This document shows positions 7,701 through 46,876 of a DNA stretch of 64,000 nucleotides, piece by piece; position 1 is the stretch's first letter, and every line of letters begins with the position of its first letter. The DNA is from Heterotrichella gracilis. Its lineage: Eukaryota > Sar > Xanthophyceae > Tribonematales > Xanthonemataceae. The stretch is taken from contig JAULBX010023296.1 in assembly GCA_032358255.1 (NCBI GenBank), positions 124,001-188,000 of the forward strand, read 5' to 3'. A program made the translations under genes and the position numbers. Under the pieces are notes generated by a model. That model searched no databases and was not told the DNA's origin. It saw only the letters and a program-made list of their open reading frames with translations.

Positions 7701-10700
7701 GGCCCACTCCAGGGCCAGGATGAGGAACACCACGTTCATGCCCTCGGAGAAGTTGGACCACTGCATGCCGCCCTTGTGCTGCAAGGGGGAGGGCAGGGGT
7801 GTGAGCGTGAGGGGTTTGACAGCAGCCATAGTAGCGTTTTGCAAATACTTTCAGTGTGGTTTGCATAGGCTGTAATGACCTAAGAAATTTCACATAATAT
7901 TACTTAAATGTTCCTCATGGAGTCTTTAGGAACCATTTAATGGGAACAGGAACCAAGTCTTGTTACACAGGATATAGATGCCATTGGACCCTTTTGAACT
8001 AATACATAGGGTTAAAGTGATGTGAATATAAAACGCAAGTGGGTCGCGTGGTCAGCGGGTGCGTACCTGGTAGGCGCCCTTGAACGCGTAGTTTGCAAAC
8101 TCCATGAGGCCGCGGTACAGCGCCAGGCCCGGCACCAGCTCCATCACCCACACCCAGGAGCGGTTGTTGGCCACAAAGGGCTCCAGCAGGATGTTACCGA
8201 TGAGGCCAGCCACCAGGATGTACAGGAAGGCGATGGCGAAGGCGGAGCGCGTGCCCCGGAAGAACGCCGAGTACAGGAAGGTGGTCGCGATCATGGCGTT
8301 GCCCCACAGGAAGTAGAACACGATTTGGAGCGACACCTGAGGGACGATGAAGATGCAGTGGAATAGGTGACACAAGCATTAAGGGGTAAGATTAAATTAA
8401 TAGGAGGAAGCAGGCAATCCAGAGAACAGGAGAAAGGTAGGTTGCAGGCAACCCAATGGCAATACGATTCATCATTGGTTCCTAGACCCTAGACACTGGA
8501 CCCAAAGCAGGCTGCAGTTTCACCCCCTAAGGTCAGTGCCCCACCTGGGTGAGTGTGAAGAATTTGAGGCCAATCCCCGCTCCAAATCCCATGAGCAGGG
8601 CCACGTAGGCCACGTACAGCAGCAGGTACCAGGCGTACATGATGGACCAGTAGGCCAGGTCGCTCAGGCCGTGCATCTTCATCATGATGCGCAGGCTGCA
8701 GGGGGAGGGGGGCGAGGGTTGAGCACGTCCCACACAGAGAGGTATAATGTTGACCACCAACAGTACATGGCGCACATGCTTCCCCTGTAACTTCTGCTGC
8801 AATCAACGCAGATTGCATGCAATGATCCTAAACCTACACCCTGGCGCCAAAACCCTAAACCCTACAGAAGGGTGTACAGGCGGTGCATGCACTCACTTCT
8901 TCTCCTTTTCGTACACCAGGTTGTATGTGATGATTGGCATGAGCAGCTGCAACAGCCAGCAGTAGAACATGGGGCCCAGCAGGGAGCTGAAGTCAAGCGT
9001 GAGGCGCGTGCCGCCCTTGGGGGTGGACTGGATCCCCAGCAGGGTGACGTTGTACTGCCTGCCACTCACAGCAGACAGGAAGGTGTTGAGAAAGGCGTTC
9101 ACGCCGAGGTTCTCGGCCTGCGGGGGTTTAGGTGTAGGTTAACTGCGTGTGGGGGTGGGCACAGGGTGTTATGACATGAGCATGCATGGGCGCTGCCAGC
9201 CAGTGGTGATGTGGCGCCAAATTTTATGATGCTGGAATTTTGACATGAAACATACAGCTTACATAAACGCTACAAAGTCTAGAGTGCAGACAGGCCAAAT
9301 GAAAATATATATACTTTACCCTCCATATACTTGTGGATATATCATAAAACAGTTTAGTGATATTACTGTGGACTACTGCGAAAGCATGCGTGCCCAGGGG
9401 TTAAGCACAAACAACCCCACAAACCATAAAACACACCTTGTTCATGCGCTGCGGCTTGGGCGGCGCCGAGTTGGGCCCATTCTGCTCCAGGATGTTGGTG
9501 TTGTTGTACCAGTTAGTCACGTTGAAGGTGTTCAGCCCAGAGTTGGCAAAATCCCAGGCAGTGGCAAAGCCGGGAGGCACGATGGTGGGGTTGTTTGCGC
9601 AGTTCGCCTGGCGCAACAGGACAAGCAGCGGTCGGCATGAGCGGGCCACATGCGGGTGTTTGGGGTTTAGGCAAACCCTAAACCCTAAACCGTGAAGGTA
9701 CAGCCTTGCCTGGCTGGACAGCCATGCGTCACAGATGTCATGTGCAGAAGGACTACCAGCAGCACTACAGCATGCATGTGCGCACCCCAGCTGAGGGCAG
9801 TACATGCCAGGCACCCGACCCACCTCCCAATAGCCGCAGTACAGTGCGTCGTTGATGGCGGACTCGCTGGGCTCGAACCCAGGGATGGCTTGCGCACACT
9901 CCAATGTCGGCAGGCTGCGGGCCACCGTGGCGCCTGCCAAGGTAATGTTTGAGCCGAGGGCCTGGAAGTAGGCGTTGAGCGTGGCGGTGCTGGTATCGGT
10001 GGTGCAGTTGGGCACAAGGTTGTACGGGCCCTGTGGCAGGGGATGGCACACAGGGGCATTAGTTAGTTGGTTACATGCTAATCTGGCTGTATTGCTGAAA
10101 TGCATGTGACCAACTAACTGACCCCACACAAGTTGCACTGGCAGTGGGGCTGTAGTGGCGCTGCAATGATGCCTGGCTGGGCAGAAGGCATGCGGCAGCC
10201 ATGCGCACCATGTGTGTAGCTGGGTTTAGGGTCATGAGTTAGGGTTTAGGGTACCATGCGCACCATTGTGTAGTTGCTGTTGCTGTCGTCGACAAAAAAG
10301 GAGTTTTCTAGGTAGTAGGACCAAGGAGCTACGGCAGAGGAACCCAGCACGTAGCCAAGGAGCGCAAGCGGCTGGAGGTAGATCGTTTGCTGCACAAACC
10401 AACGATGGTTAGGCTGTGCGATCAGTGCATGACGTTGGGGTAGTTGTTGATGGGATCCCAACAACAGTAAGACCCAAATAGCTATTGCATTGGGGTGAAG
10501 GTGCAGTATGCATTGAACCATGGATCAAGGGCCAAGTACCTGTTGCTGGGCCTCGGTCAAGTACCGCGAGATCTCAGAGCTGGGTACGTCAGTGAACGCC
10601 ATCGGCTCCTTGAACAAGTAGCCTGCCAGTTGTGACGCCACTTCTTTGTCGTCCCCGGTGTACAGCATCTGCGGGTTGAAGTAGGGCTGCGGGTCCTCTG

Positions 10701-11497
10701 TGCTGCGGTTGGGAAGCTGCGGGCACCACAGTAAGTTGTCAGCAGTCGGCAGAAAAACCCTAAAAAATCCCTAAAAAAGGAACCATCTGGGCCGGCCTGA
10801 CCCAGCAGGAGCTCACAGTGCTAGCTTAGCAAGCGGTATGAACACTGCCAGGATGACCGCTTGGCGAGCGCATGTGCGAGGCTGACTGACTGGTACACTG
10901 GGATGCATATGACTAGATGATGAAGTGCAGTGGAGTTGAGGAGGCGAGCAGGCCACCTGATCAACACGCATGGAGCAGTACTTGCCTGGACAAAGGCTGG
11001 CCAGACGGGAGGGCTGGCAATAGGGCAGAACGCAGCCTGCGTTGGTGTAGAGAACTCCAGCCCACATTGAGTCGTGTCATACTCTTTGCAATCGTAGGGA
11101 CAGGCTTGCGGTGAAGGGAGCAGCTGGATCACTGTGCCGTTGTCAAGCGTTTGCATGCACTGCAAACACTTGCACCCACACTTGCTGTTGCTGTCTGAGT
11201 TTATTGCTCCGTCAATGGCCTTCTGGAGCCCGAAGAGCAGGAGGCAAAAGAATATGGGGCAGAGCAGTATGCATGCGTTCATGCATTTCGAACGGGACTG
11301 CTGGATAGCGTTCTTCCTGAACAAGGCGTTGGCTTGGGTCCTGTATGTCGCCTGCAACACGGCGCAACCCAATGAGAGACTAGGGGCAGCGGCAGGGGGT
11401 GTACGGGGTACCTCGAGGAAGGATGCAATAGCTGTCATTACCATGTAGGGCATGTAGTGCGTGTTAGACTAGTCTTGCCACTCACCGAATCCGACAT
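4726..11497 (-). CDS. Half-size ABCA-family ABC transporter (ATH type)
   Basis: Membrane ABC transporter, probably moving lipid, with one membrane half and one nucleotide-binding domain, as in plant ATH-type ABCA proteins. Sixteen exons: 11497-11486, 11351-10986, 10716-10540, 10389-10255, 10030-9824, 9607-9437, 9117-8897, 8695-8545, 8336-8067, 7778-7560, 7286-7164, 6801-6645, 6381-6233, 5952-5779, 5486-5292 and 4995-4726; about 998 residues. The tiny first exon (MSDS) gives [18 protein letters not shown], the usual ABCA N-terminus. One helix follows near residues 30-50, then a long Cys-rich, Asn-rich non-cytosolic loop, then a helix cluster. Walker [10 protein letters not shown] is at about 715-723, signature FSGGMKRR at about 816, Walker [10 protein letters not shown] at about 836-844, and the H-loop His at about 872. 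The intron after 10986 starts with GC. The 10389-10255 exon could instead end at 10264. Confidence 0.93.
7006..7104 (+). repeat. Dispersed intronic repeat, copy A
   Basis: Lies in an ABCA intron (between 6801 and 7164). It contains TTAGTTACATGCATTCCAGC, then a core with CCAGATTAGCAGTCAG, then a GGCGCCACGC stretch ending in TTTCCTGGCA. It is nearly identical to 15954-16045. A DNA element or SINE-like origin is possible; no coding capacity. Confidence 0.8.
10059..10120 (-). repeat. Dispersed intronic repeat, short copy with inverted ends
   Basis: In an ABCA intron. The ends AGTTAGTTGGTTACAT (about 10060) and ATGTGACCAACTAACT (about 10103) are near-perfect inverted repeats. The core, read in reverse, matches the CAGCAAT..AGCCAGATTAGC core of the copies at 7006 and 15954. 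The form is that of a very short MITE-like element. Confidence 0.7.
10201..10270 (-). repeat. Echo of ABCA exon tail with telomere-type spacer
   Basis: The donor end of the 10389-10255 exon (CATGCGCACCAT on the plus strand) is repeated at 10200-10220, and GGGTTTAGGG-type motifs lie between the two copies. Confidence 0.65.
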
Positions 11498-12730: not shown

Positions 12731-15700
12731 ATGGAGGGACCTGTGGAGAACGGCAAGCACAATAATGGGTATGCCAATGGCCATGCCGATGTCAACTCGT
12801 TCACCAAGTCGCAGAAGCCATGGCACCGGCGCTTCTCCCAGCAGCTGTATGCTCTGCTCTACAAGAACGGTGAGGGCAACTGGCCTGGTTGCTCCTGTAC
12901 TGCTGCAGTACAGTTGTACTACCCAAAGCTGCACCTCCAAAGCTGTGCATATGCTCATGTCTTGTGGTGCAGTCCACCCATGCTGTAGCCTGTGGACCCA
13001 TGCTTCTCGATGCCACCTAGCACCGACCTGTCGTGCACTGGCCTCGTCCTGAGGGCCAGGCTGTGTGGCGGTGGTTACCCAATAGGGGCTAACACACCCC
13101 ATCAACACCCCTGCTGCAGGGCTGTTTGCAGTGCGCAACCTGAAGGCCAGCCTCACCAGGCTTTTGGCTTCCTTCTTCTTCATGTTCCTGCTCTGGTTGT
13201 TTGACAAAGCGCTGCAGGCTGACTCCAACAACCTCGCTAAGTACCAGTCCATCAATGACCCTGTCGCAAAGAACATCGGGGGAATACCAGACTGCAATGA
13301 GGACCAGTATGCCTTGTCCCCTTGCTGGGACTTGCTCTACACGCCAAACAACAGTGCTGTCGTCAACGTACGTGCTGAACCATGTTTTTTGTTGTTGCTA
13401 TATCACCGCGGTCATACAGTTACAGAAACTCCTGTATTGCACCCGCAGGAGATTGTGGCAGGCATCATGACCAACAACGCCGGGGGTCCGATACCTGCAG
13501 ATAAGGTGCGCCCTTGGTAGTAGCATCCATATAGGCTTGTTATGCTGTTGTGGCCGTGCCAGCATTGGTTGCGGCGGTGGGCTTGCCAACTAGGCGAGCA
13601 GCTGCGTGCTTGGTCACTGTGGTTGCCTCCTCACCATGGTATGTAATCTGCAGGTCCTGGGATTTGCAACGGTCCCTGACGCGAACGCGTGGATGTTTGA
13701 TCACCCTGAGCAGTCCATTGGCGCCCTGCACTTTGACGTCCTCTCCCCCACCAACATTGGGTTCACCCTCCAAGTCAATACCACGGTAAGTGCGGCACAG
13801 CCCTGTCGCGCAGAGTGACTCTCCTTTGTGGTGCTGTGAACAAGAACTTATGTACTGTATTGCCGACGCCTGTCACTGAGTTGCCATGTCCCTCCTGCAG
13901 GTCAAGTACTTCAAGGGCAACTTCCAGAACCCCGACTTCTTTTCTGCACTGCCCATGCAAGTTGCGGCTGAGCGGGAGGTGTCAGCGTACTACTACAGGC
14001 AGGAGGTGGCTGCTGGCACCATCTCGCAGCCCCTGAATGCTTCGATGTGGAACGTGATTTTCAAGGAGTTTGCACACCCGGCGCTGGGATCCTTCTCCAT
14101 TGTTGGGCAAGCTATCGGGCCCTTCATATTTGCCGCCAACATGTTTGGCTTCGTCATTGCGGTGAGCTGCTGGAAACTAAATTCACTCTGCCCAACTGTT
14201 GGGTGTGCTGACTAGTTGCCTCATGTGCAGCCTATATTCATGCCCTGTGTGCTGTCTGTGGTGCATCATGCTACAGGCTACCAAAGTGATGGCATGGTGG
14301 ACCAGAGGTGCATTGCTCAGGAATCAACTAGGCTGGCTGGTGTTGGGCATGCATACAGGGGTGACTGCTAGTCCAACAAAACCGCTGGAAACTGCCCCTC
14401 ACTACCCTCCTTTCGCTGCAAATGTGCTGCGGCAAGACCTTGACTTGACTGAATTGCTTGATTTGCTGTATTTGTAGATCACATGGATTGTCGGTGAACG
14501 CGAGGCCCGGCTGAAGCAGTTCATGAAGATCATGGGCATGCTGGACAGCGCCTACTGGATGTCCTGGATGCTGGCAGAGTTCTGCTATGCCCTGGTGTCC
14601 ACGCTGCTCATGATTGCTTTTGGCTGCATCTTCGGCTTTCGGCTCTTCCTGCACAACTCCTTTGGCCTGGTGTTCTTCCTGTTCTTCCTGTTCCAGCTGG
14701 CAATGTCATCCTTGGCGTTCATCATCACGTGTTTCCTCTCCAGGTGCGTGCGCGGGCAGCAGCAATGAAGGTGGCAGTGTGTGCCTGCCACCACCTTTTG
14801 CAGATGGCATCAGCAAAGTTGCTTCACAATCTGGCGCCGAAGTGTAGAGAGCCATTATGCTCCGTGAACACCTCTGTCTGAGAACTAGCAAGCTGCATCA
14901 AGTTGTTCATGGTAACATCATTACTTCAAATGCAACCGTTGCTGACATGCCCTATGGCCAATGCAGGACTGCTGTAGCTGTCAACCTTGGCTTTGCCCTC
15001 TTCATCGTGGGTTGGATCTTCCAGATTGTTGTGAACTTTGGCTTTCCATTCACACCTGACTATGTTGGGAAATACCCAGTGGTGACTGTTATCTTTGCGC
15101 TGCTGCCCTTCTCTCTACTCACCAAGGGTGCCACGGATTTGGGCGATGCCACAGCGGCAAACAACCCAGGCCTAGAGCTCAGCCAAGCCTACAGGTAATA
15201 GTAGTCTGGTTGCTTTGTTTTAAGGACAGGAACAGTGATCCTTGCCACATCCGCTCCATATCATGTAGGTTCCCAATGCACACGCACGTCCACTACTGCC
15301 ATACCGCACATCACGGTCCATATTCCATGTCTTTGAGAATAGGCATTTACTGCTTCTCTCTGTGTCGATTACTGCCTTTTGTTTGAATTGTAAAGCTGAA
15401 AGAGTGGATGAAAGCTCGTGATATCTTTACCCACCTCCCTCCTGGCCTGTGCAGCTACTGCAAGGGCCTCATCATCCACTCCATCTGTATTTTTCCCCGT
15501 CTCTTTTTTAGTCCCAGCTTTTTGCCTGTGCAGCTACTGCAAGGACCTGACCATCCAGCAGCGCGCCGAGGAGCCTGCCCAGCCAGGCGTGTATGTGGAC
15601 TACGACTGCGTCATGCCACTAGGCAGGATCTTCGTCATCCTGTTCTGCGAGTGGATCGTGTACTTCCTCATCGCCATCTACCTGGACAACGTGGTGCCCA

Positions 15701-18700
15701 ATGAGAATGGGGTTTCCAAGAAGCCATGGTACATCTTTATGCCCAATTACTGGTCGCCCAAGGGCCGGGCCAACTACCGCCACCGGAAGGCGGCCAACAC
15801 CACCATCGGGGCGGAGATCTTGCGGGCGCCGCTGCAGCGCCAGGTGACCCTCTAGGGGAGGTGTTGCATGGCTTGCAGGTTGACACCATGCAATATCAAT
15901 TTGAAAAAATGGTTCAAGCCAAGCATCAATTTAGACCATGCCATTTGCAGTTAGTATTAGTTAGTTACATGCATTCCAGCAAAAAAGCCAGATTAGCAGT
16001 CAGTCTTGCACATGCGGCGCCACGCAGCGCTTTCCTGGCACTGTTTGAACCATCTGCCATTTGCAGTAAATAAGATAAATTCCGTTTAAGCATGCTTTTC
16101 TGTTTTTGCAATTGCAGCATCTGCACACATTTATTTCTGATCATCTATCTGTTTCCTTGTTCTTTCTTCTGATCCATGTTTGTCTCATCTGTAGGAGACC
16201 GGCACCCTTGACAGCATTGATGAGGACGTTTCAGCTGAGGAGGCTCGCATGCGGGGCCTGCTTGAGCATCGCACTGGGTCAGCTGATGCTTTGGCACTGG
16301 AGGCAGATGCGGCCAATGCCGTGGAGCTGTACGGCCTGCAGAAGCTGTTCAAGGGGCAAAGAAAGTGGTACGTGGGAGGCGGGGGCACTGAACTATGCGT
16401 GTGACATGCCCTGACACCCATGAGTAATGACAAAATCAGGAGGCGTGAAATAACGCATCTTGCTCTGTGTGTTACCGTATGTTCCGAATTAATGCTGCGG
16501 TATACCTTCCTGCACAGACGCCTCAGATAGATGCCATTGCTGTTGCAATGCTGCCAAATGACAACCTGCTGACACTGTGGCACCATGCTGCCTTGTTTGC
16601 CTGCTTGGCTCGCCTGTTTATACTTACCAACACCTGCACATTTGCCTAAATGCCTCGCCTGCCTGACCCCACTGACGCACGCCCCCGCGCACTGCAGCTG
16701 TGGCTGCCCCCCTTGCAAGTCCACCAACGACTTCTGGGCCATGAAGGGCAGCTGGTTTGCCATCGAGCGCAACCAGCTGTTCTGCCTGCTGGGGCCCAAC
16801 GGCGCGGGCAAGACCACCACCATCAACTGCCTCACGGGCGTGCTGCCAGCCAGCGGCGGCGACGCGCTGGTGTATGGCGAGGCCATCAGCTCGCCGGGGG
16901 GCTTGGACCGCATCCGCTCCATCATGGGTGTGTGCCCGCAGTTTGACGTGCTGTGGCCGGAGCTGACCGGGTTTGAGCACCTGTGGATCTACGGCAGCAT
17001 CAAGGTACAGCCTTGGCAGTTGTTTTGAATGCTCGGAAAATGTGATAAATTGAGCCAAGCGCAATAAGCGCCTGGCTGTATTGTCTTGGCATGGTCATAC
17101 AACTCACATCCAGGTGCTGATCTTATGCCATATGCTACCCGTTTCCCCACTAACAGAACCCTCTTCACTGCAGCGCCTGCTCACTGGAGCAGCCAAAACT
17201 GAGTTTAATTCCCCAAACAGCAAGCCCTTCCCCTCTAGTCCCTTCCCCTGGCGTCCCTCAACAAATCCTCCCATCTCGACCTGTAACACCCCCCCCACCC
17301 CCCTTTTCCTGCAGGGCCTGCCCGCCGGCGAAGTCAAGAGCGACTCCCTTGCCCTCCTGGAGAAGGTCAACCTGTCATCCATCCCCAAGCTGAGGTCTGG
17401 ACAGTACAGCGGGGGCATGAAGCGACGCCTATCGGTGGCAATCTCGCTGCTGGGTGACCCCAAGATTGTGTACCTGGACGAGCCAACCACGGGCATGGAC
17501 CCCATATCTCGCAGACAGGTGGGTGGATACCAGGAGGGATCTTATGTACTGGATATTAGAGATGTATGTAGATATATTCTTGGGTAGCCGTGCATGACTT
17601 CCGACATGAAGTTACCTCATATAAGGGTAAAAGCACTTGGCTGCTGCACAGGTCTTTGGTATGCAGTGGCCTCATTGTTTGTCATGTTATAATGAGCCCT
17701 CGCAATCTCAGAGCTGTCACTCAGTCAGTCACCCAGTCAGTCTCTGAAACCTTCTTGCCACACGTACATGCTCCAGCTGCCTTTGCCGCGCTCCTTTTGA
17801 TTCCCTTCATTCCTGGAACTCACACCCGCTTTGCATACCTGCCAAGCCTGCCTTCTTCCTCCCCTCACCCTTCCACCCCATTTCACCCCTTTCAGGTGTG
17901 GGACATCATTGAGGAGGCAAAGAAGGCGCGCGCCATCGTGCTGACCACCCACTCCATGGAGGAGGCAGACATCCTGGGGGACCGCATCGCAATCATGGCG
18001 CGCGGCAAGCTGCGCTGCCTGGGCTCAGCCATCCGTCTCAAGCAGAAGTTTGGGTCGGGCTACCAGGTGCGCAACAACTGGGTAGATTAAATTGTTACTT
18101 ATTGGTATTACTTGCAATTCCAGCAAAAGAAGCCAGATCAGCAATCCGCCCTGCACAAGCGTGTGCCATGCAGCCATGTCCTGACACTGCTTGTATCATT
18201 TCTGTATGTTCCTTGTCCTAAATGTGTTGCCAAGGGCACACAAGGCAATAAGCCGATGATGGCTTGGAATGACTTATGTTTGTTTTTTTGTATGTCCCTT
18301 GCCTGCCGATCCTGTAGAGCTGTTCAGTAGATCAATGGGTATTAAACTCTATATATGCGCCCATATGCATGCTGGAAGCATTGCAATGAACTAACGCAAT
18401 ACATTGCCTTTGTGCTGCAGGTGAGTGTGAGCGTCATGCCCTCCAAGGCCGCCAGCATGGCAAGCCTCCATGGGGGCGACGCCGTGGCGCAGATCGCAAC
18501 CCGCGTCGCAGCCACCCGCGCCTTCTTCCGCTCCCGCCTGGGCATCCGCCCCGTGGACGAGAACGGCGCCTACCTGCAGTTCCTGGTGCCCCGGGCCAAG
18601 GAGGGCGAGCTGTCGGCGTTTTTGGAGGAGCTTGAGGGTCAGAAGGCGGAGCTGGGGGTGACGGATGTGCAGCTCAGCCTGACGTCGCTGGAGGAGGTGT

Positions 18701-19565
18701 TTTTGAACATCGCCCGCCAGGTGAGGGGTGCAGGGTTTAGGGTTTGGGGATTGTAATTTATGGTTTAGGGAAGGGAGGGTGAAGAGTATTTAAGGACAGG
18801 GGCAGAGTGGGATGTGTGCAAATTTGTGCGTCCCCTTTCCTTCTTTCCTCTTTCCTGGTTGGTGCTGCGCCGTTGGCCCTGCATGCAGCTTGCATCGTCT
18901 CTGCTGACCCTGGCGGCAGCGGACGATGCCATGTTGACACCAAAAATCACTGCAGCCGCTAGTGTCACAGCATCCTATTGCCTATAGGCATTGCTGGCTA
19001 CTCCGTTCTTGCTACTCCCACTCCCACTTTGCCAACTTGACCCCTTTTTCCACCTCCTCACCCAGGCTGAGGTTGAGGCGGCTGCCCAGGATGGTGGCAG
19101 CCTTGTGTCCATCTACCTGGAGGATGGCGCTGAGATGCAGGTGCCGGTGGGGTCAGACCTTGGCACCCACCCGCACACGGGGGAGCGCTACACGATTAAG
19201 TGGGCACAGGACGACACGGGCGCGCTGCAGGTAGGGCCCTGTTGCATCTTGCAGAATTTTTTACCCACGTAAGCCGCCTCTGCATTGGCGGGTTCAGAGC
19301 AGCTTCGTGACCCAGAATCTGACTGAGAACCGAGGTTTTGTTGTGCATTGTCGTAGGAACTAGAATATAACTATTCATGGCCCCCATAACACTTCCATTG
19401 AACTTCACTGACATATTTTTTAATCTGTTGCGCGTCTCTTTCCTGTAGGTGCTGTCTTGGGAGGCTGTGGCCGATGGCCATGATGGGGAGGTGGAGATGA
19501 CTAACCAGGTGGCGCCGGCCAATGGGGTCAACGGCAGCGCGCACCAGAAGGCGCCCCTGGTATAG
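12731..19565 (+). CDS. Half-size ABCA-family ABC transporter (ATH type), second copy
   Basis: Membrane ABC transporter, likely lipid-related by family. Fifteen exons: 12731-12869, 13120-13367, 13449-13505, 13654-13785, 13901-14161, 14478-14743, 14967-15194, 15534-15843, 16195-16367, 16698-17004, 17315-17518, 17896-18066, 18421-18720, 19066-19230 and 19449-19565; about 1025 residues. An in-frame ATG at 12635 would add 32 residues but overlaps a TATA-like box. First helix [19 protein letters not shown]; a helix cluster lies in the 13901-15194 exons. A Cys cluster (CCGCPPC) precedes Walker [10 protein letters not shown] (about 637-645), as in plant ATH proteins. Signature YSGGMKRR is near 738, then [12 protein letters not shown] and TTHSMEEAD. 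It ends with the plant-type C-terminal extension ([11 protein letters not shown]). It is a diverged paralogue of the neighbour at 4726-11497, not a recent copy. Confidence 0.94.
15447..15480 (+). repeat. Echo of ABCA exon head (15534 exon)
   Basis: CCTGTGCAGCTACTGCAAGG occurs here and again at the true acceptor (15526). It recreates the acceptor and first codons about 80 bases upstream and could act as a decoy 3' splice site. Confidence 0.75.
15954..16045 (+). repeat. Dispersed intronic repeat, copy B
   Basis: In the ABCA intron 15844-16194. It matches 7006-7104 over about 80 bases with few differences, in the same orientation. A weaker relative is at 18113-18192 in another intron of this gene. 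Confidence 0.8.
18113..18192 (+). repeat. Dispersed intronic repeat, diverged copy
   Basis: Shares the ATTCCAGCAAAAGAAGCCAGAT core and the later CATG..TCCTGACACTG part with copy B (15954-16045), but is clearly more decayed. Confidence 0.55.
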
Positions 19566-27405: not shown

Positions 27406-30400
27406 ATGAGTCTTGCACCACTGAACATCGTACACCGCCTGCGTGCAAGGGAAACCTTCGGTCAACCTAACTGGGTACGACATATACCCTTTCCCTACAA
27501 AGTGGGCTGCCATTCTTGCTGGTCTGCGAGCTTTTGCCTTGCAGTACACAAGGCTCCACGTCATGTGTTCTTGTTGTTCCGTCATGATTCGCCCACACCT
27601 GCTGCAGGTGGCTTCCAACCGCAGGCTAGCGGAGAATTTCTTACCTACAGAGACGGTGAGTATATGCTGCCTGCAGATGCGCCTGACTGCATCAGCCCTA
27701 GTATCCAAAAGCTTGCTGGCAGGTTGAGAGCCACACGCATGCATGCATGCAACAAAAAACATGCATGCATCCACTCCACCACCACCTTGCAGGTATCGAA
27801 AGTGCAAGGCCCAGAGTGCCACATCTGCAAATTTACGCCGTGTGGGAACTACCTGGTGCGTCCTCTTCAGGCTGTTGCTTGCCATACCATGGTATTATGA
27901 ACAGGACCCCTTTCTGCCACAGCAAAATGAAAGTCGGCCATTTGCACTTTTCGAAGTGCATGACAATTGAAACCTTTTTTGACTCCGACACATACAGTCT
28001 AATCTAACCTGGCGGCACTCACGATGTGGGAACTGGTCTCTAAAACCCAAAATTTATTTACCTAGTTCTTATATTTCCACAGGTCTGCTTCGGCAGCACC
28101 CAGCAGGAGCTCGTGCTGTACCGCTTCAAGGGACTGAGCACACCTTTGAACGTGGAACCACAGGGACCCTGCCTGCCACGCTCAGCTGCGCACTTTGACA
28201 GGTGAAAACCCTAAAGGAACCCTGGACCCTCGGCTGTATTGGATAGATAGGAATCTCTGGCAAGTAGTACATGGGGTGGGGTGGGGGTGGGGGGGGCGGA
28301 GGAGTCGCAAGCAGATGCAGCGAAAGGGTTTGTTGTGTACTGGCCGCAGGGTTGTCAACGTTGCTCTCTGTGGCCAAGAGATAGTAATGCATCGGCTGAC
28401 AAAATGGTGCACTGCAGACTCATACTGTGCTGCATTCTTGGATTGCATGTAGGTAATTACCCATGTGAGTAAGCTTTTGCATGTGCTTTGCAGTTACTTT
28501 GACCAGATTTACAGCAAGCGGGTGGCCAGTGGCGAAGAGGTGCTCTGCAAGGACTTCTGCCTGGTGCGTGTGAACGTTGCCAAGGGTTGAAGTCTGCCCT
28601 ACATGAAAGCAAAATGCACCATCATTACTCGAAGTGGTCCATCAGGCAGTTGCAAGGCGCACGGTTAGAAACAACATGGTTGGAGGATGGGCAGTGGTTG
28701 CAATGCTCTTGCACAAACACTCCTTGAAGCCTTGAGTGCCTTGTTATTTGCCAATTATGGTCCGCTTTGCCCTAAGGTGCGCCTTGCCCCACTGCCCACC
28801 GCAGGTGGCCTTCAGCAAATTTCTGATAATTGTTTCGTCCACCCCTCCTTCCGTGGCTGATGCTGAGGATGACAACACCCCTATCCATGGCCTGCCTCGG
28901 GTGGAGTCAATCACATTCTATCTGGTGCGATCACAGTGCAATTCCGCAAAATGAATCAATTCAATTATTGACCCATTTGTTTATAGTGGCGAATTCGTGA
29001 AACTTTGAGTACTACGCCGAACTAGCATGCTGCATTGCATCTGTAAAGGTAGCGGCAGACCACACGTTCCGCATGTGGTAGCACTGCTGCTGTGATCACA
29101 ATCATGCACACATGTGAATCAATACCATGTTAACACATGAATCACATGTGATGCTGACATGGCACGGCGTTGCTCCTGTGCAGGTTGAGCTGACCAGTGG
29201 CGATGTGCTTGACCGCTACACCATCAACAACGACTTTGTGCACCTCACGCACCACAGCGGGGTGCACCTGTATGAGGATCTGTTCACGGTGCTGGCGGTA
29301 CGCACACAAAACGTCAAAAACCCTTGTCCCCAAAACCCTTAAACCTTCAACTCAAACCCTAGCCTCTATAGGAGCATTTCATTGCGTTAATGGTACGAAT
29401 GGTACGGCGATAATCTTCACCAGGTGCAGGTTTTAGCACATAAACCCTAGATATCCACATGTGCAGGTGCGCAGCCAAAACGTCCACCTGGTCCAGACCT
29501 CAACACATAAACCTTAAAGCTTAAGCCCTAAACCCTAAACATCAACTGGTGCAGGTGCGCAGCCAGAACGTCCACCTGGTCCAGATCTCCCCCTTTGGCC
29601 GCTTCATCTCGGTGCGCCTCATTGGGCAGCAGTGCCTGGAGGACGATGAGCTTGTGATGGAGGAGTACATGGACAGGGAGAGGAGGTGCTTGCAAGCAGG
29701 TGGGGTCCTGGGGAAACCCTTACTAAGGGTTGGAAAACCCTGCTAGGGTCTACTTGTAATGGAGGAGTACATGGACAGGGAGGGGAGGTGCTTGCAAGCA
29801 AGTGGGGGCAGGGAAGCTGCTAGAAAACCCTAAACAAGGGTTGGAAATACCCTGGGGGTTTGTACCTGTGATGGAAGAGTGCATGGATAGGGAGGGGAGG
29901 TGCCTACAAGCAAGTGGGGGCAGGGGAGCACCTCACCGCGAGGTCCTCGTGTGCTTGGGGAGATCTGAATGTACGGTACTATTACCTGTATTTGAAGAGA
30001 TTGAGTTCATGTAAATAGTCCATATATAGCCCATAGTCATAGTTTTACTTGTAAATCCATATGGCAAAAAGCAGCCCATATGTTACCATACCCATTCCCC
30101 GTTCGTTTGTTTACATGTTTATTGCCGTTGCAGCCGAGGCCGCTCTGGCACCTCCGCAAGATGGTCCCGCCACATCCAGCCAACGGGAGCAGGGTGCTGT
30201 CCCTGTGGCGCCACGTGGCATGCCCTCAGCGCCCCCCCAGCGCCCCACTCGCCTCGACTACCTACCTGCATTCAGAGCAGCCACGCACCGGCACGATGGG
30301 GGGGCTGCTGCGTCCACCAGCGGTAATGGTGAGTGGATTGGATCCCATATTCAAGGTCAACGGTTCAGGGTTAAGGTTTAAGGCATTGGATTTTGTCAGT

Positions 30401-33000
30401 GGAGTAACAGTAAGATGGGGAGGCTGCTACTTTCATGAGCGGCAATGGTGCGTTCATGGATTGGGTCACTGGTATGGGGTTTGGTTTTGAGCCCCTTTTG
30501 GGGCGAGCCACGCGCGTTGACAAGGGGACGCTTGCTGCTGCGGCAGTTGCGAACCTATACTTTAAAAATCCTAAACCCTGATGTTAAGTGGCATGGGTCA
30601 TGATTGCAAGGTGGGCATGCCAGCTGTGACAGCATCCCATCTGAGCCCCTGCGCATGCGTGGTGCAGGGTCTGTCAGGGTTTTGTCGGGGTTGAAGCAGC
30701 GCCTGCTGCACTACATCTTCCTAGATGTGTACACCCGGGCACGCGGCAAGAGCTGGGGCAAGTCCCCCGAGCTCAAGGAGTTCTTCTACCACTTTGACTC
30801 CTACGAGAGCCTGGTGCTGTGGAAGGTGCGGCGGGGTTCTGGTTCCTGGATTGGGGTTTGGACCACTTGTTCTGTATCACATGTTGTATATCACCCACCT
30901 CAATCTAGGGGGCTTTGGGATGGGGGATAGGGTTTTGCACGGGACCATTTTCAGGCACATGCAAGGTCATTCGAGTTCTTCTACCACCTTGACTCATATG
31001 AGAGCCTGGTGCTATGGAATGTGCGCTGCACATTTGCTGGGGGGTGGGCGGCTGGATTGGGGTTCTGCAAGTGGTCTAGGAATGCAGGGTATGCTTGGTT
31101 GTGTGTACTCTCTTGCTGCTGCAGACCCTAAACCCTGATTTGCTGCACAGGTTGAGATGCCTGACAGCCACCGAGTGCTGCTGCAAACCCTAAACCCTAA
31201 ACCCTAATCCGCTGTGCAGGTCCAGATGCTTGCCCGTCACCACTTGCTGCTGCAACTTTTAAACCTTAAACCCTAATTGGCTGTGCAGGTTCAGATGCTT
31301 GATCGGCACCACCTGCTGCTGCAATTTTTAACCCTGAATGCTAAACCCTAAAGGGCTGCGCAGGTCCAGATGCTTGACCGGCACCACCTGCTGCTGCAAA
31401 CCCTAAACCCTGAATGCTAAACCCTAAACGGCTGCGCAGGTCCAGATGCTTGACCGGCACCACCTGCTGCTGCAGCTGGGTGCACCCGACACCTCGGCGC
31501 TGCGCCACCCCGAGTCCAGCCAGCACAGCAGCTTCTTCATGGTGTACGACATACAGGTGCGCGAAGATGATGAATAAGGCTCTTCAAGTATGAGAGCGTA
31601 GTGACATATAGCAGCTTGTTCATGGCGTACAGGATATATGTGTGGGGGGAGGGGCACGCAACCTGGCCTGACTTAATTTGCCAGACCCTCCTAGGGGCTC
31701 ATATTTGCGCTCTTCATCACCGCCTCAAGGGAGCTTATTACCCTGGGTTCATACTTATATCGTGTAATTACAAGTATTTTTTTATAATATTTTATAATGT
31801 TAAATATCACAGGCCGCGCGCGTGGTTGCCCCTGTTCCTCAACACCTCCAAGGATCTACTGGCGCTGTTCATAAACTTGCATTTGCATGCTTCGTCACAA
31901 ATATTTTCATAGTTTCCCGTCAAATGCCACAGGCCGCGCGCGTGGTTGCCCCCTATTCTTCAACACCTTTAAGGAGCTCCTGACCCTGTTCATTAACTTA
32001 CATTTGCAAGTTTCTTCACAGAAGAATCTAATTTGGTATCAACCGTGACAGGCGGCGCGCTTTGTGGCCCATTTCCTCAACACCTTAAAGGAGGCTCCTC
32101 ACCTTGTTCATAAACTTTTGTCTGCAATTTTTTCCACAAGATGGTTTTTAAGTTTTCCGTCAACTGTGACAGGCGGCGCGCGTGGTTGCCCTGTTCCTCA
32201 ACACCTCCAAGGAGCTCCTGGCGCTGTTCATGTCGCTGCACCGCGAGTTCCACGGGGGCAGCGGGGGCGGCAGCGAGTGGGAACGCTTTATATGCCCAGC
32301 AGCAAGCTCCACGCACTCGGAGGAGTTTTGGCACCGCCAGCTGGCGCAGAACCTGCCGGATGCACAGGTGGGCAGGGGAGTGCGGGGCATCATGTTGACT
32401 ACTAGATAAATCACATTGTGTTTGGCAGCGGCTGATGGCTACATGTAATTCACTCTGCGTGCCGCCTGCGGGTGATCCACAATGCTGACGCCAGTGTATG
32501 GGTATGCCAAGCTGTCAACCGCTGAGCCACCTGCCATGCCCCCCTGCAGATCAATTGCAAGATTGTCTGACAATGGACCCGTCTGCTGTGTTGTCCTGCA
32601 AAGTAAAATATGGACTGATACTGGACTGATTTTACTTCCGTTGCTGCCCATCCCCCTGCAGATCAACCGCAAGCTGCTGACGGCGCTCCCCATGCCCGCG
32701 CAACTCTTCAGCAGCAGCCCGCTCCTGGACGCCAATCTATTTGCCTACGACGACAAGCTCATCTCGCCCTCCATCCGGCCCCGCGCCTACAGCGACGCGC
32801 CCATCCGCTTCATGTCGCGCGCGCACCCAAGGGTGTCGTTCCGCATCCAGGCCGCGCTGTTTGAGCTGCCCCAGCAGCATGGGCGCCAGGTGAAACAGCA
32901 GGTGCTGTACCTGTTCCACCCGGTGCTGCCCTTTGTGATGGGGGTCATGCAGGGCTACGGCATCACCTCGCACATCGCCATGCAGCTGCGGCCGCTGTAG
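27406..33000 (+). CDS. DET1: DET1, light-mediated development protein
   Basis: DET1 works in the nucleus with DDB1 and COP10 in a CUL4 ubiquitin-ligase complex that represses light responses in plants. Thirteen exons: 27406-27474, 27608-27655, 27793-27855, 28083-28201, 28494-28563, 28805-28924, 29184-29297, 29555-29699, 30134-30328, 30668-30825, 31440-31556, 32173-32367 and 32662-33000; 583 residues. Matches to plant DET1 run the whole length: NIVHRLRARETFGQPN, CFGSTQQELVLYR, YFDQIYSKRVASGEEVLCKD, YTINNDFVHLTHHSGVHLYE, VQISPFGRFISVRLIG, LSGLKQRLLHYIF, VQMLDRHHLLLQ, PIRFMSRAHP and a C-terminal VLYLFHPVLPFVMG. An alanine/proline/serine-rich linker (30134-30328) replaces the plant Ser-rich one. 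The first two exons were placed by similarity. The gene is remarkable for repeated exon-edge copies in many of its introns. Confidence 0.93.
29460..29497 (+). repeat. Echo of DET1 29555 exon head
   Basis: GTGCAGGTGCGCAGCC..AACGTCCACCTGGTCCAGA repeats the acceptor and first eleven codons of the exon that starts 88 bases later. Aaccctaaa-type motifs lie between the copies. Confidence 0.85.
29757..29925 (+). repeat. Two echoes of DET1 29555-29699 exon tail
   Basis: GGAGGAGTACATGGACAGGG and the following GAGGTGCTTGCAAGCA are repeated at about 29760-29812. A more decayed version is at about 29870-29925. In both, the donor has changed from GCAGGTGGGG to GCAAGTGGGG, so neither keeps the same splice site. 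Agggt/aaccct motifs lie between copies. Confidence 0.85.
30405..30468 (+). repeat. Echo of DET1 30134-30328 exon tail
   Basis: GATGGGG..GGCTGCT..AGCGGCAATGGT..TGGATTGG resembles the exon tail plus intron start at 30295-30342. It lies in the intron, after a tttagg/ggttaaggttt stretch. Confidence 0.65.
30962..31030 (+). repeat. Echo of DET1 30668-30825 exon tail
   Basis: GAGTTCTTCTACCACcTTGA, then AGAGCCTGGTGCTaTGGAA, repeat the last sixteen codons and donor region of the exon ending at 30825. It is followed by gtgcgctgc, like the true gtgcggcgg donor. Confidence 0.85.
31151..31482 (+). repeat. Five tandem exon heads in DET1, four of them intronic
   Basis: Acceptor plus the codons for VQMLDRHHLLLQ start at 31151, 31220, 31289, 31364 and 31440; spacings are 69, 69, 75 and 76. 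Only the last continues into exon sequence (LGAPDTSALRHP). The first four break off after CTGCTGCAA into CCCTAAACCCTAAA-like runs and then a new tgtgcag or tgcgcag acceptor. Similarity rises towards the true exon: 31151 is most decayed and 31364 is nearly identical. Confidence 0.92.
31813..32260 (+). repeat. Four tandem exon heads in DET1, three of them intronic
   Basis: Copies of the acceptor and exon head (GGCGGCGCGCGTGGTTGCCC type, then TTCCTCAACACCTCCAAGGA) start at 31813, 31933, 32052 and 32173; spacings are 120, 119 and 121. The intronic copies carry frameshifting differences. They are joined by AT-rich spacer related between units (TTCATAAACTTgcATTTGCA, then ttcttcaca). The last copy is the real exon. 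Confidence 0.92.
32541..32575 (+). repeat. Echo of DET1 last exon head
   Basis: CCATGCCCCCCTGCAGATCA then ATTGCAAG copies the acceptor and first codons of the last exon (32649-32676, CCATCCCCCTGCAGATCAAC). It gives INCKI against INRKL. Confidence 0.75.
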
Positions 33001-34072
33001 CCACGTTGCTGGGGTTGCATGCTTGCTAGCCATGTTGTTGTACATCGCGTCGCGGCTGCGGGCGAAGTAGCGGTGTTGCTGGGTGTTTCATGGGCCATGT
33101 AGGGGTATGGTTGCAGTAGGATGATGTCCTACCCTCAGCATTGCAGATGCTACTGTGCTGGCCATGATATCCAACATGGGTGTAGTGTTGCAGTAATTTT
33201 GAACGCGGTAGCTGTTGCTTGATATTCCCTTGGGTTGTGCGGCCATGGAAGGTATGGCATGGCGTCCCACGTTTGTGTGCAATTATTGGCCATGCTTGCT
33301 CGCTATTGGTGTTTGGTAGTTTTTGCCGGAATGGGCGGTGTTTCTATTCTTTTTCTTTCATTCAGTCATTTTGACGTGGCGCCAGCTGTGCTCTTGAGCC
33401 AGTGGCCGCCTGAGGCTTGGACCATGGTGGGAGTGCATTTGAGAGTGTGGCCTGATTTACTTAGCCAGTGGCCCCTTAAATCCGCCTTTGCGCGTCCCCT
33501 TTCTTTCTGTCTTTTTATGCTTCTTTGGCGGCATGTGCGCGGCATGTATGCTACGGGACTGTTGTCTCTCTCAGGGTGTGATATCAGCTTGTGCTTATTA
33601 AGACGGGTTTGTAAAAGACGGCACTTTGCATTGGTGGACGGGTAACTTGTCTACTTCTGTGTGGATATGGATACAGGCCGGGTTTCCTGATTGCTAGGTT
33701 AGTACACCCAGGGGGTGAGTGTCAGGATAAGGTGACGGGCTAGGGATAGGGTTTGATAATTGCCAGTTGTACAACAACGCGTGCGTTTTGCTATTGCCAA
33801 TTCATTCCGGAGCTCTTGTGCACGATATTTCGTGCAAAAGGGTTGTCATTACCTTGTCTGCGCCTCAGGTGGCTTTAACGCCTGCTGCGCTCACACCCAC
33901 GCCTGACCGTGGATGCATGCATGCATCCTTGCAGCCCGGACTTACTCGTGAAGGAGTGTCTTTGAGCTAGTGTGCACTGCAAAAGTGTACAGCAATTGTT
34001 TCTATTAATTTCTGACGTGTGCCGCATACCTTGCTACGCCTGGCAGCTGTTGTGTTCCTCTTCCACATCCAA
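33001..34072. other. Intergenic between DET1 and the bZIP gene
   Basis: DET1 downstream region and bZIP upstream region. Just after the DET1 stop, GCTGCGG..GTAG..GTTGCTGGG is repeated at 33050-33085, a copy of the stop-codon region. No coding exon supported. Confidence 0.6.
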
Positions 34073-37939: not shown

Positions 37940-40900
37940 CTAGCTCGGAGGCAGCGCATTTGTCCTGCTACTGCCTAACCTGTCCCGCAGGCGCCCCGGG
38001 AATGCCCTGGTGAGGAACGATCCCGGCTGCCACTTGGCACCTGGCTGCTTCACGCTGCTGTGTGGCTTGCGGGTCAGCAGGCCGCTGTGTGCGGAGGGTG
38101 AGGAGCTGTGGTGCTGCTGGTTGATGAGGTGGCCGTTCAGCGCCGCCATCTGCACACATACGCAGGGTGTGGGTTAGGGTTTTAGGGCTAAGGGTCAGCA
38201 GGAGGAGGGTGAGGAGCTGTGGTGCTGCTGGTTGATGAGGTGGCCGTTCAACGCAGCCATCTGTAAGCAGGCGCGTGCAGGTTGTGGGTGAAGCAACCAA
38301 GGGCCATTTGCGTGAAGGCACTTATTACGTTCCATCCCAGCAGTTCACAAAACTTTCGTTTCAATCTACAGCCTTCGGCTTTTTTCTTCTTTTATTTCCT
38401 TTTCTTACACTCAATGCCCACACTAAATTCCAACCTGGCAAGCGTATACCACAGCTAGGCGCATGCATTTCATTGGTGAATTGATTGACCATGAATTTGA
38501 CAAATTTCAAATGGAATGACGAATTTCCAACTGATGCTACACTAGCTTAACAGACACCAACAATACTGGTGATGCGCCCTCACAAGTGGTGCCAGTGCAA
38601 TTCCCCAGTCAATGCCGCCGGCAGTCAATGTTGCATCCATGACACACGCCGTGGCCTTGCTGCTCGCATGCACTCACCCATCTCAGCAGCATGATGCACG
38701 CGTTCCGCTCCCACGCAGAGCCAAAGGACAGGCCAAACGTGGTCCGGCTGTTGAGTGTGAGGATGAGGCCGGTGGCTGCGCCTTCGCCCATGTTGCGCGC
38801 CCCGCATACCTGTGGCAAAAGGGACATGGTACACGTTACAACCATGCAGAATCAATCAACGCAACGGCTGAATGCGGCTACCAGGCAACAGACAGTACAG
38901 CCTGCGCCCACACAGGGTTTGGGGATGGTGGACAAAACAGGCAGGAGCCCTGAAACCCTCCGCATAGCAATATCTGACTCACAGGCGGCCGCCTGTACCA
39001 GATCCCCACTCCCTCACCCACTTTGTCACCCCACCGGCACCCAACTCCAACTCTCACCGGCCCCACCAGTCCCGGGCACCCCACTCCACCCCCACCCCCA
39101 CCTTCACCCAAGGGTTACCCCCACTCCACCCAGGCCCCACCCCCACCTGGAGCTCGCGTGAGTACTTTTGGCGGTGCAGCAAGCGCCCGTCCAGCTTGAT
39201 GCACATTGCGTGGTGGCCAACCTCCAGGCTGCACACAATGTCCTTGGGCTGGAGTACCCCGTTCATCTGCAGGATGTGCGTGTGGAAGGTGGTCCCCCCC
39301 CGCGCCACCAGCGCATCCACATGCGCCTGCAGGCCTGCAGGGTATAGAATTTGTTGTGAGACCATGCATGCGCTTCACGCCTGGCAGGGATATGGTAGGT
39401 CAGGTTATTACAAGCGCATGCAACCTGGGGTGAAGCAGGAAATTGAGCCCAGGTATTGAGTACATGCGGTTGCAAACCTGCAGTGCCCCGACACATGGTT
39501 TTAACAAAAATTCCTGCCAAGAATCACTGGAAATCCTGTATAAAAATTCCTTGCTGCATCCCATCATGTCGCATTTACAAATGCTAATATTGCCATGCCA
39601 TGCCAAGCCATGCGCGCACCTGGTGTGGATGTGATTGGGCAGGTGGTGGTGGCCACCAGGCACCGCGCGTTGTCCTCAGAGGAGAACTCGGTGTCCCTGG
39701 CTGATGGGAAGCCAGTGGTGCAGCACAGGTGGCAGTCGATGTCATTGGGCTCCGGTGCATACTGCGGCACATCAGGGGGGGGAAACGAGGTCAACGGCAT
39801 GGGGGGGTTTGCACTGCTGGTGCGGAAATTGACGCGTATGCTTGGTGTTCCTCTATAGACTCGCATGGCCCTAGGTGTCACCCAAGGCATGCAACACGCC
39901 TAGGTTCCTTTAGGTTTCCCGTAATGGCCAACGCTACCACGCATGTACTGCACCACGCGGAATGGCTAGTTTGCTACAGATCTCCCATCACCTGTGCCTG
40001 GCTGGCGCCCACAATCTCCTCGCTGCGGTTGCCAAACATGCGGTACCACTGCACCTGACCCTTGAAGGGCAGGCCGTCGCGATCCACAATCTCAAGCAGC
40101 TCGCCCAGCTCTGGCCTGGGGTACCACAAGGGGAACATTGTGGGGATTAGGCAACGTCCCCTTCTCGTACAAGATCTAGATGGTTTTCTGAGCCGAGACG
40201 GGTACATTATTATCCTATTCTATAAGATCTAGATGTAGGGACTCACGGGCCTGTTTCAATGCCTGGGTGCAATTAGGGACAGGTTTGCACTGGCGCTTCC
40301 AATGAAGGATGTCATCCTAAGCAACCAGTGCATGCAATGCAATGTTGGACAACCCAATTCACATTTAGTCCATTTATGGCGTGGATGAGGCACCACGGGA
40401 GGGCCCATAGAGGCATGGATCCAAATGCCTGACTATCCAAAACCATGGCGTGGCTGTGTCATGGCCGGTACCTGGTCTCACTTTTTTCTTTCTGAAGCAG
40501 TGCGCATGCAGGATGCAGGTACAGGTATGCATGCTGCCCCACCTGCCCTGTACCCTGACGCCAGGCTCTGCAAAGCTGTCTGTCTCGCTGGGCAGCGCCC
40601 CCCGCACCCCATAGTGGCTGCCGGGCCCAGGAGTGGCGGGTACCGATGGTGCAGCAGAGTGCGGTCCCTGCTGCTGGGCCGACACGTGCACGCTTCCCAT
40701 CGACAGGTGCCCAGGGTTGCTGGAGCTGGGTGTGGGTGGCTGCCCTGTGTACGCGTGTGGGGAGGCCGCCTGCTGGCTGTGGGATGGCTGCGATGGCGTG
40801 CCTGCCTGGTGCTGGAGGGAGGGGCTGCTGCCGGTTGTGCTGCTTGGGGATGCTGAGGGCGATGGGTGGTCGGGGTACACAGAGTCGTACAGGCCCCAGT

Positions 40901-45972: not shown

Positions 45973-46876
45973 ATGAGCAGCATCAAGCAGTCTGTTCAGC
46001 TGCGACCGGCTGCCCTGCCAACCTGCAGGCCAGTATGCAGGGGAGCCTTGAATGGCAGGGCTGCAGCGCCTTTCAGGAGCCGCACTCAGCACAGCTTTGC
46101 ACCAAAGCCCTCGCCAGCTCTGAGCATGAGGAGGAGCACACGTGTGGTTGTGCGGGCACAGAATGAGGGAGACAAGGACAGCAAGGTCAGTGACGTCACA
46201 GGGTGGACCCATGTCACAACCACGACGAGCCTGCACTGGTCACTTGTGACTACAGACGTGCTAACTGTGTGCTTGGTTGCAGGCTTCAGTTGAGTTTGGG
46301 TACTCCCGGAAAGACGTCGTCCTCATCGGGGTTGGCATCATTGGGGTTGGCTACGCGTTGTACTACGGCCTGCAAGCAGCTGGGTTGGAGCCAGGCATCG
46401 CCGGGAACTTTGTGCAGCTAGGCGTGGTCCTCAGTATCTGTGTCGGCTGGGTCTCAACATACTTCTGGAGGGTGGCAAACAAGGTATGAACACAGCCCAC
46501 GTGCATTTGGTGACACAACGTGACCAGCAGCCCCGCCTTTGTTCCCATCATGCAGCACCCATTGAGGGCAGCTTTGCTGTGTTACTGCGTGCTGTCTGAC
46601 GGGTGCGCCAAGCAGAGCGATTGTCCCGTGTTACATACACAATGTGACCAGCATCCTTGCCTTTATTCCCATCATGCAGCACCCGCCAAGGGCAGCTTTG
46701 CCATGTTGCTGCCTGACGGGTGCCCATTGCTGCAGCAAATGACGTATGTGAAGCAGCTGGAGGACTACGAAGAGGCAGTGATGCAGAAGCGCTTGGAAGA
46801 GATGCCCGAGTCAGAGCTGGAGGCGCTCACGAAAGAACAAGACGAGCGGAAGGAGCGCCAGCAGCAGAAGCAGTAA
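45973..46876 (+). CDS. DUF3007 family chloroplast membrane protein
   Basis: Small plastid protein of the DUF3007 family shared by cyanobacteria, algae and plants; molecular role unknown. Exons 45973-46185, 46283-46483 and 46736-46876; 184 residues. The first exon looks like a chloroplast transit peptide: rich in Ser, Arg and Ala, no acidic residues until about residue 65 (RRSTRVVVRAQNEGDKDSK). The second holds two hydrophobic segments (DVVLIGVGIIGVGYALYYG and FVQLGVVLSICVGWVSTYFW) ending in RVANK. The third is a charged helix (MTYVKQLEDYEEAVMQKRLE). The family pattern YALYYGLQAAG and STYFWRVANK makes the call clear. A thylakoid location is inferred from the family. Confidence 0.88.
46520..46735 (+). 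repeat. Tandem duplication inside DUF3007 intron
   Basis: Two units of about 120 bases share GTGACCAGCA, then CTTTgTTCCCATCATGCAGC, then GGGCAGCTTTGC and CTGACGGGTGC. The second unit ends at the true acceptor of the last exon, so the pair again multiplies the exon-proximal intron end. Confidence 0.8.

Follow-up and report, generated by a model that had tools for sequence, protein, structure and literature searches.

How an exon edge comes to stand several times in a row within its own upstream intron, with telomere-type sequence between the copies, is the question raised by one gene of the xanthophycean alga Heterotrichella gracilis. The gene lies in a 64,000-nucleotide stretch of contig JAULBX010023296.1, referred to here as the window. 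An initial annotation, made from the letters alone, had described five tandem copies of the head of one exon at 69–76 bp spacing and had assigned this exon to DET1. The assignment is borne out: the protein joined from the exon models matches Pfam PF09737 (E = 6.2e-58), and the alignment with DET1 homologues from the PDB crosses the junction without a gap (WKVQMLDRHHLL vs. WKMQLLDENHLF).

The array occupies 31124–31474 and consists of five units spaced by 69, 69, 75 and 76 bases (Table 1). A repeat search places the five copies at 31117–31496, and Tandem Repeats Finder reports 4.9 copies at 31125–31474 with a score of 359. Each unit combines CCCTAAA-like filler with an AG|GT acceptor and with a copy of the 35 bases that open the exon; only unit 5, which contains the real exon head, continues into coding sequence. 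The intronic units carry potential decoy 3′ splice sites, as had been proposed, and a frame read from a decoy acceptor meets a stop within the filler after 18–20 codons. The common break-off place claimed for the intronic copies is present in all four, each of which ends after one and the same exon base (CTGCTGCTGCA). The claim that they run straight on into telomere-like sequence holds for units 1 and 4, in which the exon-like part is followed immediately by clean AAACCCT repeats, but not for units 2 and 3, in which a T-rich stretch comes first and CCTTAAACCCTAA or CCCTGAATGCTAAACCC follows. Over the 38-base stretch used to compare the units (CAG|GT...CTGCTGCTGCA), the number of differences from the real exon copy falls from 8 in the farthest intronic copy through 3 and 2 to 0 in the nearest, which agrees with the decay by distance noted earlier, and each pair of copies shares only 0–1 derived sites. 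The exon parts of units 4 and 5 are identical, and their fillers start differently, that of unit 5 with clean heptamers and that of unit 4 without them. A sixth copy upstream of unit 1 is only suggestive, with a p value of about 0.03–0.04 that becomes 0.49 once the CTG end is dropped. The motif TGCTGCTGCA precedes the oldest filler and recurs at the unit end.

Table 1. Duplicated exon edges of the DET1 gene, in window positions
Feature	Position	Strand	Remarks
Intron and next exon head	29298–29589	+	Intron 29298–29554; head copy at about 29466 with telomere-type filler; real head at 29555
Exon tail with donor, three copies	29653–29919	+	AAACCCT-type joins
Exon tail and one intronic copy	30295–30467	+	76% over 54 bases
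Upstream exon tail (30778–30830) and intronic copy (30973–31025)	30778–31025	+	91% over 53 bases
Possible sixth, strongly decayed exon-head copy	31081–31123	+	Ends in TGCTGCTGCAG adjoining the oldest filler; p about 0.03–0.04
Unit 1	31124–31185	+	Telomere-type filler, AG|GT acceptor, decayed exon head from 31151; 8/38 sites differ from real head
Unit 2	31186–31254	+	Exon-like part from 31220; 3/38 sites differ from real head
Unit 3	31255–31323	+	Exon-like part from 31289; 2/38 sites differ from real head
Unit 4	31324–31398	+	Exon-like part from 31364; 0/38 sites differ from real head
Unit 5	31399–31474	+	Filler, real acceptor, real exon head from 31440
DET1 exon with copied head	31440–31556	+	Pfam PF09737, PDB DET1 alignment through the junction, splice sites
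Short stretch near exon tail and downstream copy	31527–31630	+	90% over 21 bases; weakest in the set
Second exon-head array, four copies	31809–32231	+	Non-telomere filler
Exon head and one upstream copy	32540–32673	+	91% over 22 bases
End of coding sequence and single copy in 3′ flank	32972–33092	+	76% over 51 bases

The units are not copies of a dispersed mobile element, a candidate that is ruled out by a genome search (skipping very common words) in which the 332-base array matches only its own locus and, through 34 bases of filler, another contig. On that contig (L004), the match is a telomere tract between two copies of a different sequence, which reads like an exon tail with its donor. 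The duplication occupies 4937–5070 of L004, and the tract, ~35 bases long, contains the variant AAATGCT, similar to GAATGCT in the DET1 filler. The 274-kb sample used below consists of the window and 21 further stretches of 10 kb, all from other contigs. L004 was chosen for its filler match, and it is excluded from the count of local duplications and from that of coding overlap but included in the others.

Most other exon edges of DET1 are also touched by similar duplications. Comparison of the window with itself reveals nine duplicated DET1 exon edges (starts at 29441, 29651, 30295, 30778, 31112, 31527, 31799, 32540, and 32972). The last of these involves the end of the coding sequence, and two, at 31527 and 32540, span just 21–22 bases. 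Under a stricter cut, six merged duplications lie in the 5.5 kb of DET1 and 30 in the remaining 258.5 kb of the sample. DET1 carries an unusually dense set of telomere-joined duplication scars. With units of 30–120 bases placed at random, the probability that all nine fall at exon edges is at most 0.0014 if equal survival of copies is assumed; we make no claim of targeting, because copies with a coding partner may survive longer, which lies outside the placement model. In the second array (31809–32231), divergence is greatest in the copy next to the exon (8, 11, and 16 differences from far to near), and 4–6 derived sites are shared per pair, unlike in the telomere-type arrays.

The filler is of the type of the alga's own telomere repeat. 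Among 7-mers seen at least 40 times in the sample, rotations of the telomere heptamer rank first in over-representation. In 68.5 Mb, the 17-mer AAACCCTAAACCCTAAA has 2731 matches (overlaps are counted, so that longer tracts count more than once), and its reversed control has none. Runs of six repeats occur in 18 contigs, at the start in eight, at the end in five and internally in five, and all 13 terminal runs are in chromosome-end orientation, which identifies TTTAGGG as the telomere repeat. This repeat is thus also present at internal sites. The same genome holds 43 matches to the chlorophyll-binding family; the best, a CP26 protein, aligns to chain 7pi0_S with 311 bits, and this chain and the next best come from green algae, a likeness that by itself would make a chlorophyte likely.

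Local sequence is frequently duplicated around internal telomere tracts. Among sample tracts of at least 11 bases, 22/61 have a direct repeat on both sides (score of at least 34), compared with 116/3000 random positions and 0/1631 mismatched pairs. DET1 accounts for five of the 22 positive tracts and L004 for four; without both loci, 13/48 are positive. At 60 further sites fetched with AAACCCTAAACCCTAAA, local direct repeats flank 22 tracts, against 3/3540 mismatched flank pairs; the other 38 have no detectable flank duplication and may be old or otherwise formed. The distance to the tract is at most 10 bases for both copies in 9/22 cases, for one copy in 9/22 and for neither in 4/22; duplication of local sequence by the join is accordingly close on both sides at 9/60 sites. 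In the cleanest examples (L074, L083, and L086), copies of 25–34 bases lie 0–1 bases from a tract of 24–26 bases on both sides. At positions 1–300 of L086, an apparent short exon has, by eye, a copy of its head upstream and a copy of its tail downstream in the order S–telomere–S, where S is the duplicated stretch. The initial annotation had suggested break repair that also adds telomere-type DNA, and this suggestion gains support because flank duplication around tracts recurs at many sites in the genome.

Viewed from the duplications instead of the tracts, 14/36 local duplications contain a telomere heptamer, compared with 13% of random spans (10/30 without DET1). The other 22/36 contain none, so telomere DNA is not required for duplication. 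Sixteen cases pass a filter for the register of the break site with the telomere repeat, which telomerase priming would be expected to produce, and few of these are clean. Tracts of at least 11 bases in predicted introns number 27 in the C-rich sense and 12 in the G-rich sense (20 and 12 without DET1), a weak bias. Without L004, 0/57 tracts lie inside predicted coding sequence, a partly circular result in that the repeat contains stops. Local duplications are also found in other genes of the window, at 38093–38289, 46513–46723, 57062–57326 and 61546–61910, and predicted introns near 38, 57 and 61 kb contain copies of adjacent exon edges. Elsewhere in the window, two divergent predicted genes (4729–10722 and 12785–19559) have, by eye, ATP-binding cassette motifs and membrane-like stretches.

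Exon edges are a common partner of these duplications. A codon model seeded on DET1 predicts 205 introns in the sample, and in 21 of them the edge of a neighbouring exon is copied (8 tails and 15 heads, some with both), compared with 4/14384 mismatched pairs and 3/4792 non-adjacent pairs within the same locus. DET1 and L004 contribute four each to the 21. At the fetched sites, 15/22 duplicated flanks overlap predicted coding sequence; among random 45-mers from the same loci, 34% do. Because a coding partner keeps a copy recognisable for longer, the excess at exon edges need not mean that breaks favour them.

Seven loci picked for closely spaced tracts were examined, and five have arrays of 3–5 copies; the other two, L030 and L091, have two-copy duplications. 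In L092, the copied stretch is an exon end with its donor in a gene for the acetolactate synthase (ALS) small subunit (PF10369, E = 3.1e-14), followed by AAACCCTAAACCC joins, and four of the five copies have the join in common. By eye, one of the two arrays in L089 reads as an acceptor with an exon head and those in L093 and L094 as exon tails; the fifth such locus is L090. Divergence from the exon grows with distance in 4/5 arrays compared, with one tie; the exception is the telomere-free DET1 array at 31809. The number of changes shared per copy pair is 0–1 in the main DET1 array and 0–2 in the other three. In the ALS and short tail arrays, the copy closest to the exon has few changes, most of which also occur in farther copies. 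Growth of the arrays beside the exon is therefore likely on the evidence of these ladders, and only the main DET1 array shows a clean pattern of descent from the exon-proximal unit or from the exon as it reads today. The initial annotation took the DET1 array for a peculiarity of one exon; the flanked tracts at the fetched sites (22/60), the exon-edge copies in introns (21/205) and the arrays (5/7 loci) instead place it in a genome-wide class.

We consider it probable that the DET1 array has grown from a break-repair scar of a kind widespread in this genome, an S–telomere–S structure whose unit was then multiplied. The starting point would have been a double-strand break across the DET1 acceptor and exon head that left long staggered ends; fill-in of both ends would have duplicated the stretch S (about 46 bases), with telomere repeats added or captured between the copies. 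Unequal exchange or slippage would then have multiplied the unit, chiefly on the side near the exon, where neighbours are most alike. The last copy, the only one continuous with the reading frame, would be kept by selection, and the earlier, intronic copies would decay. The first S copy of the founder would be represented in DET1 at best by a remnant, at 31081–31123. The footprint itself, which consists of the array, the ladder from the exon and S–telomere–S structures at many unlinked loci, is well supported; the staggered break, telomerase as the source of the repeats, fill-in of the CST/Pol α type and unequal exchange are what we infer from it. The direct duplications of 17–100 bases around inserted tracts would be the trace of staggered-break fill-in with telomere addition before joining. 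Telomerase and CST both act on 3′ overhangs at telomeres, which makes a pairing of telomere addition with fill-in plausible.

The main-array copies derive from the exon itself, with distances of 8, 3, 2 and 0 and next to no shared derived sites, and this would also be expected if each unit had arisen by a separate break and a separate telomere addition at the exon edge, as the initial annotation implied. The different filler starts of units 4 and 5 point the same way and argue against plain amplification of a unit, although the filler of unit 5 may have been renewed. Independent breaks should nevertheless have left different end bases, and the DET1 copies end at one exon base (CTGCTGCTGCA), just as the join is common to most ALS copies. 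The idea of repeated additions therefore stands as far as growth from the edge is concerned and is doubtful for a separate addition per unit: one founding event followed by amplification fits better, and unequal exchange among the youngest and most similar neighbours would preserve the common break-off point. We regard separate additions as unlikely. Slightly less likely still is ordinary minisatellite growth, in which telomere-like intron filler would have expanded by slippage between short direct repeats such as TGCTGCTGCA without any telomere insertion. The position of this motif ahead of the oldest filler and again where the unit ends (it occurs 15 times in 274 kb, on both strands), the frequency of telomere heptamers across the genome and the majority of local duplications that have no heptamer are all in keeping with such growth. 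Against it, local copies are found on both sides of tracts at a much higher rate than at random positions (22/61 vs. 116/3000), the copies abut the tract in the cleanest cases, and heptamers are found in 14/36 local duplications against 13% of random spans, or in 10/30 when DET1 is left out.

A role in splicing, by which the array would be kept for regulation with the AG|GT units as recursive splice points or with CTAAT/CTGAT as branch points, is very improbable. The AG|GT is kept in five of the five units, and CTGAT or CTAAT, which resemble the branch-point consensus, begin 16 bases before the exon-like part in units 1–3. The copies nonetheless decay steadily with distance, the GTTGAG, GTCCAG and GTTCAG of the units are unlike the DET1 donors (7/9 of which read GTGNG), and arrays of exon tails exist as well. 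Runs of N at two other array loci might raise the suspicion of an assembly artefact, which the graded divergence of the copies and their recurrence at many unlinked loci make scarcely credible.

Telomere insertion and tandem duplication at breaks are each already known. In mammals, short interstitial telomeric sequences are inserted at double-strand breaks, and direct target duplication is put down to staggered breaks in the horse study (PMC2246262, PMC7215372). As in the alga, the tracts reported there are short and lie at unlinked internal sites, some with direct target duplication. According to the accessible parts of these reports, such duplications are a minority in mammals (6/130 rodent, 4/25 primate and 3/66 horse loci, plus two complex cases) (PMC2246262, PMC7215372), whereas 22/60 and 22/61 tracts here lie between local copies of at least 17 bases and some have grown into exon-edge arrays; the counts are not strictly comparable, as empty sites were used there and flank similarity here. 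In mammalian cells with designed breaks, fill-in by CST and Pol α-primase at breaks with 3′ overhangs (of 43 bases in one design) produces small tandem duplications (PMC8355091). The likeness is that a stretch between staggered nicks is duplicated in tandem at similar length and that CST is also a telomere complex; the difference is that telomere repeats at the joins, present here, are unmentioned in the accessible text of PMC8355091. A description of telomere insertion and tandem duplication combined as exon-edge arrays was not found in our searches of open papers.

Intron gain by tandem duplication provides a third comparison. The start of intron 29298–29554 of DET1 resembles the downstream exon head with a score of 37, compared with 15–19 for the other eight DET1 introns and up to 29 for pairs of different introns, apart from one pair with overlapping regions. 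The donor of this intron may come from a copied exon head, to judge from this resemblance, and the case may thereby match the known route, in which the duplication crosses an intron–exon boundary and a copied exon segment supplies the donor. In the published accounts available to us, that route is a single event without telomere DNA. In a strict test for intron birth by duplication, in which the contexts of the 5′ and 3′ splice sites must match, 0/202 predicted introns are positive, and this test has low reach, as it also misses the DET1 intron; a wider comparison of splice-site contexts is positive for 1/9 DET1 introns. The strict result means that the evidence bears mainly on the growth of introns.

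These findings link telomere addition with tandem duplication at ordinary breaks, two processes that are usually studied apart, and the genome offers many natural cases from which the rules of such repair can be read. Gene finders should be warned of the false exon copies that result. The scars provide a route by which introns lengthen and collect decoy splice sites at exon edges. It is conceivable, if rather doubtful at present, that telomere addition coupled to staggered-break fill-in is a leading source of intron growth in this algal lineage; if the sample is typical, some thousands of telomere-sealed duplications would then have planted decoy splice sites throughout the genome and occasionally given birth to an intron, as may have happened at DET1 29298–29554.
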